Source of the DNA: a virus
Length of the DNA stretch: 43,702 nt
Reading direction: 5' to 3' (one strand)
Virus record (IMG/VR): IMGVR_UViG_3300022744_000010
Span: 1 to 43,702 of that record
Position 1 is the stretch's first letter. Each line of letters begins with the position of its first letter. Positions 27,012-43,427 of this stretch are shown piece by piece. The notes under the pieces were generated by a model. That model had not been told where the DNA came from. It saw nothing but the letters and a program-made list of their open reading frames with translations, and made no database searches. The translations under genes were made by a program, and so were the position numbers.

Positions 27012-27208
27012 AACCCTGGTATCAATCGAAAACCATCATTGTCAACGCTATCGTGGCCGCCCTGGTGGCCCTTGAAGCTGGCACCGGGCTTTTGCAAGCC
27101 TATTTGCCCGGCAACTTTTACACCATCATTGCCGTCGGTCTTCCCGTGGTCAACGCGATTTTGCGCGTAGTCACCACCACGGCACTGACATCTAGCAAAG
27201 AGGCTTGA
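27008..27208 (+). CDS. Holin
   Basis: The 66-residue protein has two hydrophobic segments (TIIVNAIVAALVALEAGTGLLQ and TIIAVGLPVVNAILRVV) with a short turn and a charged C-terminus (SSKEA), the layout of a small class II-type holin. The GTG start at 27008 overlaps the endolysin stop and has GGAAGGA upstream. It would form the membrane hole that frees the endolysin. Confidence 0.83.
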   Translation: MKPWYQSKTIIVNAIVAALVALEAGTGLLQAYLPGNFYTIIAVGLPVVNAILRVVTTTALTSSKEA

Positions 27209-27210
27209 CC

Positions 27211-27726
27211 ATGTGGAAGATGATTGTCGGCAATCCCTGGGCGCTGGCGGCCCTCTTTGCGCTTGGGCTGGCCTTTGGTGGCTCCGGGGCATGGTGGGTG
27301 CAGGGGCAACGCCTGGCGGCCACACAAGCGCGGTTTGACGGCTTCGTCGGCACGGTGAAGGCCGAAGGGGACGCCGCAAAGAAGCTGGCCGAAGCGAAAG
27401 CGGCCGAAGACAAACGAATAAAGGAGAATTCCGACCATGAATATCAAATTACTTTGGCTGGTTTGCGTGCTGACAATAAGCGGTTGCGCGACGCCCGTGC
27501 CGGTAGCCGTATCGTGCCCGCCGCCCCCGCCGGTTCCCGAAGTCCTGGCCTTGCCTGTTTCGACCGGGCCGAGCTTGAGCAAGCGTTACAGCGATTTGAT
27601 GCAGGAATTGCGGGACTCTTTGACGAAGGCGACACGGACGCCGTAGGGCTCAACGTGGCACGCTCTTGGGCGGCAAGCATTCGCGCCGGTATGTCCCCTG
27701 ATAGTCCGGCCAGTGTCCGGCCTTGA
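27211..27726 (+). CDS. i-spanin (Rz-like)
   Basis: The 171-residue inner-membrane spanin has an N-terminal anchor (LAALFALGLAFGGSGAWWVQG) and a periplasmic coiled coil (VKAEGDAAKKLAEAKAAEDKRIKE) followed by an Rz-like region (LACFDRAELEQALQRFDAGIAGL). The ATG at 27211 is used; an in-frame TTG at 27205 is unlikely. The o-spanin gene is nested in the +1 frame. The last 77 bases overlap a leftward gene on the other strand. Confidence 0.88.
   Translation: MWKMIVGNPWALAALFALGLAFGGSGAWWVQGQRLAATQARFDGFVGTVKAEGDAAKKLAEAKAAEDKRIKENSDHEYQITLAGLRADNKRLRDARAGSRIVPAAPAGSRSPGLACFDRAELEQALQRFDAGIAGLFDEGDTDAVGLNVARSWAASIRAGMSPDSPASVRP
27437..27646 (+). CDS. o-spanin (Rz1-like lipoprotein), nested in the i-spanin gene
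   Basis: The 69-residue protein has a lipoprotein signal ending in a lipobox LTISGC (Cys near residue 17), then a proline-rich stretch (CPPPPPVPEVLALP), both typical of Rz1. AAGGAG lies ten bases before the ATG. It lies wholly inside the i-spanin gene in the +1 frame. It would pair with the i-spanin to fuse inner and outer membranes at lysis. Confidence 0.9.
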   Translation: MNIKLLWLVCVLTISGCATPVPVAVSCPPPPPVPEVLALPVSTGPSLSKRYSDLMQELRDSLTKATRTP

Positions 27727-27844
27727 CCATGTCGCAGTATTGAGCCTGGGCGACCTTTTCGTCTTCATAGTCCATGTGACCAACGAAACCGAAGGCGGCC
27801 AGCACCAGCAACATTGCGGCCGGGATTGTGATTTGTTTTTTCAT
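27650..27844 (-). CDS. Small exported or membrane-anchored protein
   Basis: The 64-residue protein has an N-terminal signal/anchor (ITIPAAMLLVLAAFGFVGHMDYEDEKVA) followed by a short domain with two cysteines (YCDMVKAGHWPDYQGTYRREC). Similar small phage proteins of unknown function exist. It is the last gene of the leftward small-gene operon, and its 3' end overlaps the i-spanin gene by 77 bases antisense. Confidence 0.72.
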   Translation of the reverse strand: MKKQITIPAAMLLVLAAFGFVGHMDYEDEKVAQAQYCDMVKAGHWPDYQGTYRRECLPPKSVPR

Positions 27845-28140
27845 GGTTCCATCCTGTCCAAAAATAAACGGTAAGCGGCTTGCATGCCTGCACTGTGGCC
27901 GCCGTGGGCCTGGTAAGTCTTGACCATTTCGACGGCCACATCATCCGGGAGCTTGACGGGAAGCCGGGCCGGTTCGTTGGGTTTGCTTTCAAACTTCACA
28001 GCATCCTTGACCGCTTTAAGGCGCCGGTCAACCTTGCGGCATTCCGGCGGCTCCGGGTCGTTGACGTCCCAATTGAGCCCGCGCGGGGCGCAAATCATTT
28101 GGTCGCCGTACTGGCGTGCCTGGCAATTGTGGCGCTTCAT
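27841..28140 (-). CDS. Hypothetical small phage protein
   Basis: The 99-residue protein starts at an ATG at 28140 (KRHNCQARQYGDQMICAPRGLNWDVNDPEPPEC). This start overlaps the stop of the 30-residue peptide upstream, so translation is probably coupled; a longer in-frame reading from 28203 is unlikely. The N-terminal half carries three Cys and may bind metal; the C-terminal half is helical (DDVAVEMVKTYQAHGGHSAGMQAAYRLFL). No function is known. Confidence 0.7.
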   Translation of the reverse strand: MKRHNCQARQYGDQMICAPRGLNWDVNDPEPPECRKVDRRLKAVKDAVKFESKPNEPARLPVKLPDDVAVEMVKTYQAHGGHSAGMQAAYRLFLDRMEP

Positions 28141-28229
28141 TGTTGATCGTCCCGCGGGTTGATTCGGAAGATTTGCGCAACAGCGACGCCCGCCAGCAAC
28201 CAAAGAAGCAAGAGGGCGCCGACGGTCAT
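28137..28229 (-). CDS. Tiny membrane peptide (30 residues)
   Basis: MTVGALLLLWLLAGVAVAQIF makes one membrane segment or signal anchor, followed by a short charged tail (RINPRDDQQ). The start overlaps the upstream stop as ATGA and the stop overlaps the next start as ATGA. Such tight coupling on both sides supports a real gene despite its size. Function unknown. Confidence 0.6.
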   Translation of the reverse strand: MTVGALLLLWLLAGVAVAQIFRINPRDDQQ

Positions 28230-28384
28230 TTCTTTTGCTCCAATTTCCAAGCCTTATACCACGGGGCCATGTAAATGGCGGAACGGGTCAAACCAACTTT
28301 GGCGGCAGCGGCATAGGGCGTAACGCCCTGTTCCGTTACCATTTTGCAGGCTTTGACCATTGCGGCGGATTCGCGGGCGGCCAT
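28226..28384 (-). CDS. Small HTH-like protein (52 residues)
   Basis: The protein contains KACKMVTEQGVTPYAAAAKVGLTRSAIYMA, the pattern of a single helix-turn-helix ('GVTPYAAAKxxGLxxSxxY') seen in small phage DNA-binding proteins. It overlaps its upstream neighbour by one base (TAATG) and the next gene by ATGA. It could be a regulator of this operon or of the shared palindromic promoters. Confidence 0.68.
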   Translation of the reverse strand: MAARESAAMVKACKMVTEQGVTPYAAAAKVGLTRSAIYMAPWYKAWKLEQKK

Positions 28385-28857
28385 TATTCAGACCCCAGCA
28401 ATTCGGTAAGGCCCTGCAGCGTGTGCGTGGCTTTCTTGATATCCAGCATACCCCCCTTGTCTTGCTCCCGCGCTAGATACGCAATTGCTGTACCCTTCAT
28501 GTACCCGCGGAACTCTTCGGGCGTGAGCCAGCGCCGCAAGACTTCCCACGGCTGATAGTCCCCCAGCTTTTTGTAATGGTCCCCACCCTCTTGAATATCC
28601 AGCACCGACACGGCTTCGGGTGCGTCAACCTCAAAGATTACGGCAATTTCCGAAGTCTTCGCGTAGCCCCGGCCGCTGGCGCCTTGGTAATGGGTTTCTT
28701 TTGCGTTCGACGCACTGACAATAAACACGGCGCCGGACTCCCGGTCGACCAATTTCGTTCCATTTTTGTAAATCACTTCAAGCCCCTTGTTTTGACAAAA
28801 TCCCGCGCATTCCCCTTCCGGGTAATTGCAACCGCTTGCGCCATGCGTGCAAGTCAT
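28384..28857 (-). CDS. DUF3310 domain protein with N-terminal cysteine cluster
   Basis: The 157-residue protein ends with the DUF3310 pattern: GGDHYKKLGDYQPWEVLRRWLTPEEFRGYMKGTAIAYLARE, then DIKKATHTLQGL, a family often next to nucleotide-metabolism genes in phages. The first 30 residues have five cysteines (CTHGASGCNYPEGECAGFC) and may bind zinc. The ATG at 28857 is chosen because AAGGAG lies eight bases upstream. It overlaps the genes on both sides. Confidence 0.78.
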   Translation of the reverse strand: MTCTHGASGCNYPEGECAGFCQNKGLEVIYKNGTKLVDRESGAVFIVSASNAKETHYQGASGRGYAKTSEIAVIFEVDAPEAVSVLDIQEGGDHYKKLGDYQPWEVLRRWLTPEEFRGYMKGTAIAYLAREQDKGGMLDIKKATHTLQGLTELLGSE

Positions 28858-29348
28858 TTGGCGCACTCCTTAACGATAAATTCCCGCGCCACTTCATAGG
28901 CCGCACCTTCCCACGGTTTGCGCATCCCCGTAGCCTGCAGCCTGATTGCGATAACTTCGACGCCCCTGTGAGCGACCGCCCGGTCATGTTTGGCGACCAT
29001 CATGTCCCCCAAATAATCGACAGCGTAATGCAAGCGATTGGCCGACGGCCACATGGCGTCGAGAGTGGCCCGCAAATAGGCTTCATAAGCCAGCATGCCG
29101 CCAAGTTGGCAAGGGTTCGCGCTGGCCTGCTGTGGGGCCGCCACGGGCTCCCGTTGCACTTGGACAGGGCAAGGGCCTTCCGTACCGTCCGCGGCGATTC
29201 TGACGCATGCGGCATGCGCCCCCGTGGCCGCCAATGTGGCAACAATCACCACGGCCGCAAGCGCCGCCCAAAAATGCCACTTGGGCACCCAGCGCGGGCC
29301 GCAAGTACAATTCCGCCCCTGGTTGCAATTTTGATTGCACATGGTCAT
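28854..29348 (-). CDS. Hypothetical membrane-anchored or secreted protein
   Basis: The 164-residue protein has a cysteine-rich cytoplasmic start (CNQNCNQGRNCTCGP), one membrane segment (FWAALAAVVIVATLAATGAHA, with an A-x-A-like end), and a long domain beyond the membrane (MLAYEAYLRATLDAMW, VEVIAIRLQATGMRKPWEGAAYEVAREFIV). The start at 29348 overlaps the previous stop (ATGA); an ATG at 29342 is better spaced from AAGGAG. No family recognised. Confidence 0.68.
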   Translation of the reverse strand: MTMCNQNCNQGRNCTCGPRWVPKWHFWAALAAVVIVATLAATGAHAACVRIAADGTEGPCPVQVQREPVAAPQQASANPCQLGGMLAYEAYLRATLDAMWPSANRLHYAVDYLGDMMVAKHDRAVAHRGVEVIAIRLQATGMRKPWEGAAYEVAREFIVKECAK

Positions 29349-29737
29349 TTCTCCTTTTTCGGGTTAAGTATCTGGTCCAATTCTTCCCGCCCGTAGGCGG
29401 CGGCGTTTGCCACTTGTTGCCCAAGTTCGCTAAGTTCTTTGGCTATCGCGTGGGCTTCCGCCTTGTTGTCGCCCCGGAGCTTTTCGCCAAGTTCAAAGAC
29501 CCGGTCGGCCAACTTTTCTAAAAAATCCTCTTCCGGGTATTGGGCGATTGCTTCCGATACGCGGGCTTCAATCGTGTCGACTTCGGGGCGTTCGGCCAAT
29601 TCGTCCGCCAGGCGTTCGCAACGGGCAATAAGTTCCAATTCGACCGGCGTCCGCATAATTGCCGGTTCGCACTCAAGCGACCGGATTAAGTGGTCGTCGT
29701 CCATTGACGCCATAAGGCCGGGATGCAAAATTAGCAT
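29345..29737 (-). CDS. Hypothetical helical acidic protein
   Basis: The 130-residue protein is acidic and helical with repeated Glu/Leu patterns (LELIARCERLADELAERPEV, DFLEKLADRVFELGEKL, AIAKELSELGQQVANAAA), probably a coiled coil. No known domain. It overlaps the genes before and after, as the whole operon does. Confidence 0.7.
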   Translation of the reverse strand: MLILHPGLMASMDDDHLIRSLECEPAIMRTPVELELIARCERLADELAERPEVDTIEARVSEAIAQYPEEDFLEKLADRVFELGEKLRGDNKAEAHAIAKELSELGQQVANAAAYGREELDQILNPKKEK

Positions 29738-29859
29738 GGCTTTACGCTGATGCGGCGGGCACCCGGGAAGCGTTCGGCGGCATCAATGACCGCGTCGACG
29801 CTGGATGCGAAGAGACCGAAATACTCTTCGCCATCTACAGTAATCTTAAATTCAATCAT
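29731..29859 (-). CDS. Small hypothetical protein (42 residues)
   Basis: The peptide reads MIEFKITVDGEEYFGLF, then a helix (SSVDAVIDAAERFPGA) and a beta end (RRISVKPC), a compact beta-alpha-beta. AGGAG lies about seven bases before the ATG at 29859. Its end overlaps the next start by seven bases. Together with coupling this supports a real gene. Function unknown. Confidence 0.65.
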   Translation of the reverse strand: MIEFKITVDGEEYFGLFASSVDAVIDAAERFPGARRISVKPC

Positions 29860-29920
29860 TAGCATCACTCCTAAATTGATAGCTACCCGCGCTTATGTGG
29901 CGGGGCCGGTGGGTTATTTG

Positions 29921-30064
29921 TTATGCGAAACGGGCTTGAATTTCGCAACCGTGGAATTCCGCGGCGTGACGCTGGGCGGCCACAAGGGTTCGATGCATGC
30001 GCGTACCTTCGATGTACACCCAGCGCCCGTTAACTTTATGGTAAATGTCAATCAGTTCAAACAT
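29921..30064 (-). CDS. Small hypothetical protein (47 residues), first gene of the leftward operon
   Basis: The peptide begins MFELIDIYHKVNGRWVYIEG and ends HRTLVAAQRHAAEFHGCEIQA. AGGA lies before the ATG at 30064, and the palindrome-bearing promoter at 30119-30091 lies directly upstream, so this is the first gene of the nine-gene leftward operon. About 60 bases separate it from the next gene; I see nothing in that gap. Function unknown. Confidence 0.68.
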   Translation of the reverse strand: MFELIDIYHKVNGRWVYIEGTRMHRTLVAAQRHAAEFHGCEIQARFA

Positions 30065-30090: not shown

Positions 30091-30119
30091 ATTGTAGATC
30101 AATAATTTACCTACGTCAA
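30091..30119 (-). promoter_or_regulatory. Leftward sigma70-like promoter with palindromic operator (copy 4)
   Basis: On the minus strand TTGACG (30119-30114), 17 bp and TACAAT (30096-30091). The spacer carries AGGTAAATTATTGATCT, matching the palindrome of the other three copies at 14 of 17 positions or better. The -35 box lies inside the last codons of the DNA polymerase gene (Leu-Thr-stop). Confidence 0.8.
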
Positions 30120-32141
30120 CGCATAGAACCCGATATCTTTTAACATGCCTTCGGCCTTGGACGTGTACCACGCATAGTCGATATCATCCGGCAATTGGTC
30201 CGGTAAGTTCATGCACGGACGGGCGCCGTAGGATAGCGACACGGTGTTACCGTTGCTGGCATAGACAATAGGGCCGGGCGCCTGGGTGCTGTAATACCAG
30301 CGCACCACCTTGCCCAAGTATTCCGGCGTTTGGGGATGGAAGCATGCGCCGTATGCTGTGGTCGCGTCCGTCACACTGTCGCCCTTGCGCCACTTGCGGC
30401 CCTCTTTGACCCAGCCGCACGCCTGCAATGTGCCGACCATATCCATGACCCTGGCGCCCTTGCGCGGCCCTTCGCCCCACATTTTCACCCCGCCGCCGTT
30501 GACCTTTTGGATGGTTACAAATTTGCGAATGTCCCGGCATGCTGCAATGGTGTAAAAAATGGGCGTTCCCTTCGACAAGAATTCGGCCACGGCGTCCGCG
30601 CAAATTTCGACGTCGGGGTTCTTTTTCTCCACCAATCCGGCTTTGCTGTATTCCCCTTTGCGCTTCACTTCCCCGTCGGTCTTCACGGCAAAATAATTAT
30701 TCACGTCACGGGAGTAGACCGCCTGATATTCCACGGTTTCCATTTCCAGCCCCGTGCGCTTTTGCCATTCAGCAATCAGGGCTTCACTCACGGGCACTTT
30801 GTCGCGGGGGCACTTGATAACGACGCCGTCGGTGTTCGCGCTGATAACTGGAATGCCGTAAATTTCGTGCCATTCAATCAGCATCAAAAGGGACAATTGC
30901 CCCGTGATTGTGGTTTGAATCAACATGGTCGGCGCAAATAGAACGCTGTACGGGCTCCCGGTCTTGCCGAAAGTGCCGTTAATCATAATCTTGCCGCCTT
31001 CGTTGCCGACCTTCGCGTCTTCGTATTCTTCCCCCTCAGTGCGACCGGCTTTCTTCAATTTACCTTGCAACTCTTTGGCGGCCAGGCGTTCGTTTTTGAT
31101 GGCCTCATATTCCTGCAAAAAGGTTTGCCCAAGTGCTGGGGGCCATTCGCCAGAATTGAGAATTAGCGACGGGTAATAGCTGGCGACGTCATTGTCCCGC
31201 AAAACCCAATTTTCGTCGGAGCGGTGGACAATGGTTTCTTCCCGGCTGTGCAATCCACCAATGCCCACTTTATAGGTCGACTGGTTGATCGTGATAAGCA
31301 AACCTTCAAGCTGTGGCGGCATTTCGACCGTACCTTTTGGCCCCAGCATAAAAACGGATTCGCGCACCAATTCAAGCGCCTTTTGAAGCTGTGGCAAGCT
31401 GTAGGAAATAAACGGCGGCACCTTGTAACGAAAGCGCAAATTCCAATCAATTTCCGGCTTAAAAATGCGTTGTCCTGTGGCCTGTTCGCATCGACGCTTC
31501 AATACGGCTTCGGCTAATTGGGCATCCGATTTGCTCCGCAAGTCAATGCCATAGCGTGCGCTCAATGCGACCCGCTGATGAATTTGCGGGGCCAGGGCAT
31601 CAAAGAGGGCTTCAAGGACGGCAAGGTCGTTTTCACAATAGGCGTCGACTTCCACAATTTCCGCTTCGGTCACGTAATGGCCTGGGTCATAGGGCAAGTC
31701 GCGCATGGTGGGGCAATGGATGCGCCCGGCGTATTGCTTTTGACTTCCGGCACCTGGCGCCACTTCCATGACGTCGATATGGTCCGAAGGCTTCCATTCA
31801 GGCAAGCCCAATTCCCACGGCTTCACCTTTTCAACAATGATGCGGTCGTTAAGCCATTTCAATTGCTCCGCGGTGTAGCCGGAGAGGGCCGCGGTAATCA
31901 TGGGCACGTCGTAATAATTGCCGTTGAAACTTACCGCGCAAAAGGCGTCGAACAGTAGCCGAATGCGGGCGGCCGTGGCCTGGTCAAACGCTTGACCGGC
32001 GCGAAGCCGAAAGCCATACGCCTGGCCGCCACGGGGGCGAAATTTCAACAGCCAATAATTTGGGAAACATTCCGTGTCGTAAAAGGCAACGGGGCGGCTT
32101 GCTGTGGCCGGTGGGGGCGGTGGCGGGGCAATTATCATCAT
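30111..32141 (-). CDS. DNA polymerase, family B-like, with 3'-5' exonuclease motifs
   Basis: The protein has 676 residues from the ATG at 32141, which overlaps the deaminase stop; an upstream ATG at 32171 is less likely. Exonuclease motifs are visible: AFYDTECF near residue 21 (Exo I), SFNGNYYD near 70 (Exo II) and YCENDLAV near 170 (Exo III). Polymerase motifs: A DNDVASYYPSLI near 317, B KIMINGTFGKTG near 383 and C ANTDGVV near 435. Motif C reads NTD where most family B enzymes have DTD, but the essential second Asp is kept. It would copy the phage genome. It is the last gene of the leftward replication operon. Confidence 0.87.
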   Translation of the reverse strand: MMIIAPPPPPPATASRPVAFYDTECFPNYWLLKFRPRGGQAYGFRLRAGQAFDQATAARIRLLFDAFCAVSFNGNYYDVPMITAALSGYTAEQLKWLNDRIIVEKVKPWELGLPEWKPSDHIDVMEVAPGAGSQKQYAGRIHCPTMRDLPYDPGHYVTEAEIVEVDAYCENDLAVLEALFDALAPQIHQRVALSARYGIDLRSKSDAQLAEAVLKRRCEQATGQRIFKPEIDWNLRFRYKVPPFISYSLPQLQKALELVRESVFMLGPKGTVEMPPQLEGLLITINQSTYKVGIGGLHSREETIVHRSDENWVLRDNDVASYYPSLILNSGEWPPALGQTFLQEYEAIKNERLAAKELQGKLKKAGRTEGEEYEDAKVGNEGGKIMINGTFGKTGSPYSVLFAPTMLIQTTITGQLSLLMLIEWHEIYGIPVISANTDGVVIKCPRDKVPVSEALIAEWQKRTGLEMETVEYQAVYSRDVNNYFAVKTDGEVKRKGEYSKAGLVEKKNPDVEICADAVAEFLSKGTPIFYTIAACRDIRKFVTIQKVNGGGVKMWGEGPRKGARVMDMVGTLQACGWVKEGRKWRKGDSVTDATTAYGACFHPQTPEYLGKVVRWYYSTQAPGPIVYASNGNTVSLSYGARPCMNLPDQLPDDIDYAWYTSKAEGMLKDIGFYALT

Positions 32142-32563
32142 TCCCCCAGCGCCGTAATTTGCGTGCCGCATTCGTTGAACATCAATTGCGCTTGGTGCAT
32201 TTCAATTCCCCAGCGTTCAATAAAGTCGACCGGCGGCAACGGATACACCACGCGGGCAATGCCACTTTGAACCAGCTTTGCGGCGCACCTTGCGCACGGC
32301 GGCCGGGTTACATAAATGGTCATGCCCGTAACATTGCGCCGCGCAAAGAGCAAGGCGTTTTCTTCCGCGTGAATCGTTCGCAGCAATTTGACTTCACGGT
32401 CGACCGGGGCATCATTGACGCCTTGCGGAAAGCCATTGAAGCCAGTCGAAACAATGCGTTTGTCTTGGTCAACAATCACGGCGCCGACTTGGGTCGACGG
32501 GTCTTTGCTCCAACTGGCAACAAGCGAAGCCAGCGCAATAAAACGGGCATCCCATTTACTCAC
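32138..32563 (-). CDS. dCMP deaminase
   Basis: The protein has 141 residues from a GTG at 32563 (SKWDARFIALASLVASWSKDPSTQVGAVI). Zinc motifs are clear: HAEEN near residue 64 and PCARC near 88. A TTG at 32569 is also possible. It makes dUMP from dCMP and so supplies thymidylate, but no thymidylate synthase is present, so it depends on the host enzyme. It overlaps the polymerase by four bases. Confidence 0.92.
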   Translation of the reverse strand: MSKWDARFIALASLVASWSKDPSTQVGAVIVDQDKRIVSTGFNGFPQGVNDAPVDREVKLLRTIHAEENALLFARRNVTGMTIYVTRPPCARCAAKLVQSGIARVVYPLPPVDFIERWGIEMHQAQLMFNECGTQITALGE

Positions 32564-36234: not shown

Positions 36235-36266
36235 GTTCAAATTCTCCTAAAAGTTGAGTACGGGGA

Positions 36267-40529: not shown

Positions 40530-40832
40530 ATGCGCCTACACCCTGACAACCGAAAAGAACAAATCATTGATGCCGCCGTGAAGGTCGCCGGACAACCTGG
40601 GGGCTGGGCAAAGCTGACACGCGAAGCCGTCGCCCGTGAAGCCCAATGCGCCGAAGGGCTTATTTCAAAATATTTCGGCACCATGATTACGTTTCGACGC
40701 ACCATCATGCGCCACGCAATCAAGGCCGCGAACCTGTCCGTCGTCGCCCAAGGTTTGGCGGCCGGTGACAGCTATGCAAAGAAAGCCGACCCGGAGTTGA
40801 AGGCCCGCGCACTCGAAACCCTGGCAGGTTGA
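40530..40832 (+). CDS. TetR-type HTH protein without ligand domain
   Basis: The 100-residue protein begins RKEQIIDAAVKVAGQPGGWAKLTREAVAREAQCAEGLISKYFGTM, a complete TetR DNA-binding head with the terminal Y-F-G motif. The C-terminal ligand-binding domain of TetR proteins (about 130 more residues) is absent; only a short helical tail follows (LSVVAQGLAAGDSYAKKADPELKARALETL). It is a candidate repressor of the palindromic promoters. It has its own promoter with an inverted repeat and is followed by the primase-helicase gene three bases after its stop. Confidence 0.78.
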   Translation: MRLHPDNRKEQIIDAAVKVAGQPGGWAKLTREAVAREAQCAEGLISKYFGTMITFRRTIMRHAIKAANLSVVAQGLAAGDSYAKKADPELKARALETLAG

Positions 40833-43229: not shown

Positions 43230-43411
43230 GCCCCGGCCACTTCACCACCATGGCGACACTGATTTGCGGCCCCGCGGGCTTGCTGGTGCGCTATGAGTGG
43301 TCGGGCGATTGCTTCCGCTGGAATTTCTACCGGGGCGCCCGGCGGGTCAAGAGCATCAAGAAAGCGACGGCCGTAATCCAAGCCGCTGAAAAACTTGTTG
43401 ACGCTAGATAA
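43226..43411 (+). CDS. Small hypothetical protein
   Basis: The 61-residue basic protein reads through VRYEWSGDCFRWNFYRGAR and ends KSIKKATAVIQAAEKLVDA. The ATG at 43226 overlaps the primase-helicase stop (ATGA). Its last codons form the -35 box and part of the operator of the promoter for the pentapeptide gene. Function unknown. Confidence 0.7.
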   Translation: MSPGHFTTMATLICGPAGLLVRYEWSGDCFRWNFYRGARRVKSIKKATAVIQAAEKLVDAR

Positions 43412-43427
43412 ATAATTTAGCTATAAT
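43398..43427 (+). promoter_or_regulatory. Sigma70-like promoter with palindromic operator (copy 3)
   Basis: TTGACG (43398-43403), 18 bp and TATAAT (43422-43427). The spacer holds AGATAAATAATTTAGCT, the same palindrome as copies 1 and 2 with one changed base. It drives the pentapeptide-repeat and ParB-like genes across the window join. The -35 lies in the last codons of the preceding gene. Confidence 0.82.

Follow-up and report, generated by a model that had tools for sequence, protein, structure and literature searches.

We analyzed a 43,702-base virus record, IMGVR_UViG_3300022744_000010 (the whole record is hereafter "the window"), focusing on nine leftward open reading frames (ORFs), termed g1–g9 in their order from position 30064 down to position 27650 on the minus strand. 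Comparison with related sequences indicates that these ORFs quite probably form the accessory tail of an early leftward replication and nucleotide unit, in a small uncultured phage whose replication backbone distantly resembles that of Jedunavirus-type myoviruses. The unit starts near position 36240 with an unknown protein, followed on the same strand by an exonuclease, a Gp2.5-like single-stranded DNA-binding protein (SSB), a protein matching a 'pyrophosphatase' PHROG, a dCMP deaminase and a B-type DNA polymerase. At the other end, genes for an endolysin, a probable holin and an Rz-like spanin converge on g9 from the plus strand, and the Rz gene (27205–27726, +) shares 77 bp with g9 at their 3' ends. 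Because replication genes lie upstream on the same strand and lysis genes converge from downstream, the nine genes are the distal part of the unit and not a free-standing operon. The initial annotation had described them as an operon of their own; it was right that there is one block behind a promoter, but this block is the distal part of the longer unit. By comparison with relatives, g2–g9 are one co-directional block ending against the lysis genes. A terminator-like site was looked for at the end of g9 and none was seen.

The compact arrangement of the genes differs from what could be expected by chance. All nine ORFs begin with ATG, their lengths are exactly those first annotated, and seven of the eight junctions overlap (Table 1), the sole gap being the 61 nt between g1 and g2. 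The longest chain of overlapping ATG-initiated ORFs of at least 28 amino acids (aa) comprised eight members (g2–g9), compared with one on the antisense strand and a maximum of four among 1,000 dinucleotide shuffles. The arrangement is therefore not a chance one. Ribosome-binding sites (RBSs) are good for g1, g2, g5, g7 and g9, and weak for g8 in the window. No RBS was found for g3: the energy of its duplex with the anti-Shine-Dalgarno sequence was 0.0 kcal/mol in the window, which was also the median of 10 relatives. The lack of an RBS in both is in line with translational coupling of g3 to g2. Across the aligned sequences, junctions remain ATGA, TAATG or 7-nt overlaps despite insertion and removal of genes; in many relatives that lack g7, for example, g6 and g8 are joined by a new ATGA overlap. 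By its conserved overlaps of start and stop codons the block is probably a translationally coupled operon, in which translation of downstream genes would depend on that of upstream genes. Its mRNA would thus be translated as a chain of coupled genes, with g3 dependent on g2.

Next, we compared the genes with their counterparts in about 30 distinct uncultured relatives (designated by L and a number), the count of relatives differing per gene. The frame, order and most junctions of g2–g6, g8 and g9 were kept. Median ratios of nonsynonymous to synonymous substitution rates (dN/dS) are listed in Table 1, and g2 and g6 also displayed an excess of third-position changes relative to the window sequence. 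By these alignments, the majority of close relatives have retained g5, g6 and g8, which are under purifying selection. In conclusion, g2–g9 are genuine genes by conservation, while the coding status of g1 is uncertain. A guessed list of ORFs has thus become a comparatively tested set, in which g2, g6 and g7, each of at most 52 residues, are real genes. The small genes had initially been supported by coupling and RBSs; g2 and g7 have conservation, overlaps and good RBSs, and g1 has a good RBS and no overlap.

Table 1. Features of the accessory tail and associated elements. Positions refer to the window unless a relative is named; junctions are to the next gene, negative values being overlaps.
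Feature	Position	Strand	Length (aa)	Junction (nt)	Distinct sequences	Median dN/dS	Remarks
DNA polymerase (family B type)	30111..32171	-					PHROG 1252, E 8e-181; labelled 'DNA polymerase B' in annotated relatives
Sigma-70-type promoter TTGACG-17-TACAAT	30091..30119	-					Inside the polymerase gene end; same place in relatives
Palindromic spacer TAGGTAAATTATTGATCTA	30095..30113	-					Probable operator; includes the polymerase stop codon TAG
g1	29921..30064	-	47				Orphan ORF, coding status uncertain; strongest RBS of the set
Slot-1 protein of relatives	L015:5310-5873, L004:3404-3976, L041:6865-7416		~185				Behind the palindromic promoter
g2	29731..29859	-	42	-7	14	0.29	Conserved small soluble protein
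g3	29345..29737	-	130	-4 (ATGA)	10	0.34	Start overlaps g2; no RBS
g4	28854..29348	-	164	-4		0.35	N-terminal hydrophobic signal and four-helix domain, predicted exported; invariant Cys80 and Cys162
g5	28384..28857	-	157	-1 (TAATG)		0.23	Cys-rich N-terminus, small domain, C-terminal DUF3310
g6	28226..28384	-	52	-4	28	0.17	Helix-turn-helix protein; purifying selection strongest in this gene
g7	28137..28229	-	30	-4	5	0.27	Optional gene, nine relatives; single predicted transmembrane helix, KD19 2.35
g8	27841..28140	-	99	-4	30	0.31	Four-Cys finger-like domain, C..C-x2-C..C
g9	27650..27844	-	64			0.37	Predicted N-terminal membrane anchor; conserved tail YCxMVKxGxWPDYxGTYRxEC
TetR-like protein	40530-40832	+					Short, DNA-binding; PF00440 just below cut-off; common to Jedunavirus-type phages

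The palindromic promoter reported ahead of the genes was confirmed, and its 19-bp palindrome occupies the whole interval from the -35 to the -10 box. Relatives were retrieved by polymerase similarity; in 25 of them the palindromic promoter sits precisely at the polymerase stop, and in two more (L010, L030) its form is shifted. The window contains three more copies, all on the plus strand (1343–1371, 1653–1681 and 43399–43427), lying ahead of ORFs for a 70-aa protein, a 99-aa protein and a pentapeptide-repeat protein, respectively. The consensus of the four copies is TTGACA-TAGATAAATAATTTATCTA-TAAT, and a downstream CCATCAAC stretch is partly common to them. The four copies are likely a phage regulon, and the palindrome is most likely a repressor operator, at the tail as well as at the three other promoters. 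With a promoter of its own where the polymerase gene ends, the tail could be expressed apart from the replication genes, and the palindromic operator would make this expression repressible. The conserved palindromic promoter is a direct handle on the timing of accessory genes in this phage group, with candidate regulators named.

Which protein reads the palindrome is, in our opinion, the most interesting question of the locus. The gene g6 was present in 24 of the 27 promoter-bearing relatives, the contigs of the other three (L005, L018, L040) ending before its place, and in none of the promoter-less relative contigs. Since all g6-bearing relatives with a readable polymerase end carry the palindrome, and those without the palindrome lack g6, g6 might bind the palindromes and repress its own operon together with the three other promoters, forming a minimal self-limiting early regulon; we regard this scenario as doubtful. 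The link is an association across related genomes and no proof of binding. A short TetR-like protein is 62–99% identical in palindrome-bearing relatives versus 37–52% in palindrome-less ones. Because its identity also tracks the presence of the palindrome, g6 and the TetR-like protein cannot be separated as the binder and are equal candidates.

Several observations weigh against the picture of a conserved, repressible accessory tail. The window's own copy of the palindrome is imperfect, with seven of nine positions symmetric. The excess of covariation between the palindrome arms is small (7.5 of 9 positions, compared with 7.0 on re-dealing; 7 of 2,000 re-dealings reach 7.5), and the sample includes one chance match from L046, a relative without g6. 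The statistics of g7 are based on five distinct sequences, and g9 lacks a third-position excess when compared with its closest relatives.

The domains recognized in the tail suggest what its products may do in the early phase. The C-terminal part of g5 matched PF11753 (DUF3310) with 35.2 bits (curated cut-off 24) and E 1.3e-8, as well as PHROG 236, 'nucleotide kinase', with 3.7e-15. Its residues 78–130 align to residues 112–163 of T7 gp1.7 with 32% identity over 53 aa, and gp1.7 itself scores 81.5 bits on the PF11753 model. No alignment of g5 to full-length gp1.7 was obtained beyond residues 78–130; g5 was therefore classed as a DUF3310-domain protein and not as a gp1.7 orthologue. According to Tran et al. 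(cited in PMC9339283), gp1.7 has nucleotide-kinase activity, and by analogy g5 most likely has a role in nucleotide supply. The AlphaFold model of g6 (mean predicted local distance difference test, pLDDT, 85) has four helices in helix-turn-helix (HTH) order. In fold searches it resembled generic HTH proteins, in no case significantly (best E 0.4–1.6). The role of g6, and perhaps of g8, is most likely DNA binding or regulation.

The N-terminal motif of g8 was found in 55 phage records. Its third Cys is Arg in the window (28081–28083, -) and Cys in all aligned relatives that keep the motif; either the Cys has truly been lost or the assembly is wrong at this point. Profile matches of g8 to GATA-type fingers in the PDB (E 0.02 and 0.05) were taken as no more than suggestive of a metal-binding finger. 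In two relatives (L033:8453-8668, L034:3039-3257) the finger part forms a 71–72-aa protein by itself, most of the C-terminal half being absent.

The genes g4, g7 and g9 most likely act at the cell envelope, as suggested by their hydrophobic segments, g7 and g9 having one each. In the structural model of g4, the region of roughly residues 80–162 is predicted with confidence, and the invariant cysteines flank the four-helix domain. Fold searches with g4 against the PDB and viral libraries gave at best E 0.9 and 0.2, at low probability, and these matches were rejected as chance. The gene g7 occurs in nine relatives, 63–100% identical and with five distinct coding sequences, while in L036 and L072/L073 its slot holds unrelated membrane proteins. 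Assignment of the L036 protein to DUF3789 was rejected (15.8 bits against a cut-off of 22). Residues 1–58 of g9 match positions 2–59 of the 65 in the PHROG 6168 profile (E 4.1e-23). This family is found in 122 phage records, and in those inspected its neighbours are recombination, dCMP deaminase or regulatory genes. For g2 and g3, profile searches gave no informative match; g3 matched PHROG 10122 weakly (E 3.5e-4). Neither g4 nor g6 had a sequence match in 50,697 phage records, which agrees with the initial remark that most products are undescribed. The other product types first annotated were recovered as well, namely an HTH-like protein (g6), a DUF3310 protein (g5) and predicted membrane or exported proteins (g4, g7, g9). 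Together, these products would provide early-phase support in the form of nucleotide supply, DNA binding or regulation, and envelope changes.

Could the smallest members of the set (g1, g2, g6 and g7) be chance ORFs between larger genes? Short ORFs are common by chance in G+C-rich DNA, and for g1 the comparative record is sparse: whole g1 was found in no relative, and no viral contig exactly matched a degenerate DNA pattern of its central part. Traces were found in L052 only, where the same promoter, RBS and first 13–14 codons are followed by an insert of about 1.8 kb and then by the last 12–13 codons. The two halves keep the frame and the stop, and four of their six changes are third-position ones; the common ancestor therefore probably had a coding g1. 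The RBS of g1 is also the strongest. With g2, g6 and g7 in frame, under purifying selection and joined by fixed overlaps, the chance explanation is very improbable. Disruption in relatives, which had been named as a sign against the small genes, was found only for g1, by this insert; in L015 and L030, g4 has shrunk to a remnant of 46 aa.

Two other explanations accept the genes as real and assign them different roles. The initial annotation suggested an anti-defence and host-takeover island, in which disabling host defences or host machinery would be the main task of the small genes. The position in a presumably early unit and the small, mostly undescribed products are compatible with this, small proteins of phages frequently act on their hosts (review PMC11323111), and slot 1 is swapped for other cassettes in relatives, as is typical of accessory loci. 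However, there was no Pfam or PHROG match to a known anti-defence or takeover family (a weak negative, as these libraries are not specialized for anti-defence), g4 has no structural match, and g5, g6 and g8 are retained by selection. The domains that were recognized speak for nucleotide metabolism and DNA binding. Neither family, fold nor context yielded evidence for the proposed role, and it is unsupported. DUF3310, the one domain with a biochemical precedent (T7 gp1.7), and the neighbouring dCMP deaminase and DNA polymerase indicate nucleotide metabolism; we consider an anti-defence island quite unlikely. Alternatively, g4, g7 and g9 could be an early superinfection-exclusion or envelope-protection set, with the other genes as bystanders. 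Between relatives the signal-like N-terminus of g4 is exchanged, with the putative exported domain retained, unrelated membrane proteins occupy the g7 slot, and g9 belongs to a membrane-anchored family present in 122 phage records, all of which would suit such a set. Against it, no homology to described exclusion proteins was detected, g7 is missing from most relatives, and g4 has decayed in two of them, so that this explanation too is unlikely. Hence, an accessory tail of the replication and nucleotide unit is the reading that we prefer.

Slot 1, the place of g1 behind the promoter, is variable. In L002, L004, L005, L006, L041 and L015 it holds a protein of about 185 aa. The L015 protein matched PHROG 947 (polymerase processivity factor) with 2e-8 and PHROG 3007 ('RusA-like') more strongly; it resembles a polymerase sliding clamp in sequence, and the 'RusA-like' label is perhaps a misannotation. 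In L052 the insert in g1 is a 1.8-kb cassette (L052:235-1992) carrying a DNA methyltransferase gene and two or more unknown small genes, and it starts with a hairpin-like GTGCCCGGC-TTTTC-GGGCAC. At the ends of the window, a pentapeptide-repeat gene spans both contig ends (1–250 and 43468–43702), with 15-nt tandem repeats at each; the genome is therefore probably circular or redundant, with the cut that made the record falling within this array.

Small, overlapping and poorly annotated genes are a well-known class in phages (PMC11323111; PMC6853651). A DNA-level search of the region among phage records gave no near match, a polymerase query for hosts against 84,980 genomes gave no match, and no close cultured member of this phage group was found. 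The most similar known layouts are those of JD001 (NC_020204, Jedunavirus) and the Aeromonas phage AeroV_348 (PV784690). Like the window, both have an exonuclease–SSB–polymerase unit with small genes after it, a divergent unit with a helicase and a TetR-like protein, and lysis genes beyond. JD001 matches the window in primase (52%), helicase (46%), terminase (26%), exonuclease, SSB, polymerase and the TetR-like gene, and AeroV_348 in helicase, exonuclease and TetR-like protein; relatives of g1–g9 were not detectable in either. With a terminase identity of 26% and the small-gene set absent from JD001, the window is, by its replication backbone, a distant relative of Jedunavirus and not a member.

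Individual genes also have counterparts in known systems. T7 gene 1.7 shares with g5 the C-terminal DUF3310 (PF11753) and a small-gene neighbourhood beside replication genes; g5 differs in lacking the 110-residue N-terminal part, in whose place it has another domain, and its kinase activity is putative. The PHROG 6168 kin of g9 include gene 54 of Burkholderia phage KL1, which is similar to ORF051 of Pseudomonas phage 73; gene 54 lies two genes after a dCMP deaminase, in a genome whose backbone is unlike that of the window. KorA-type plasmid repressors resemble g6 in their generic HTH fold. Membership of g6 in the KorA family was rejected (fold E 0.4 or worse; no KorA sequence at E 1 in a profile search), and its 52 residues, unlike KorA, leave little room for a dimerization domain. 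In comparison with these systems, the kind of operon is already known, while two of its families, g4 and g6, are new to the phage records searched.

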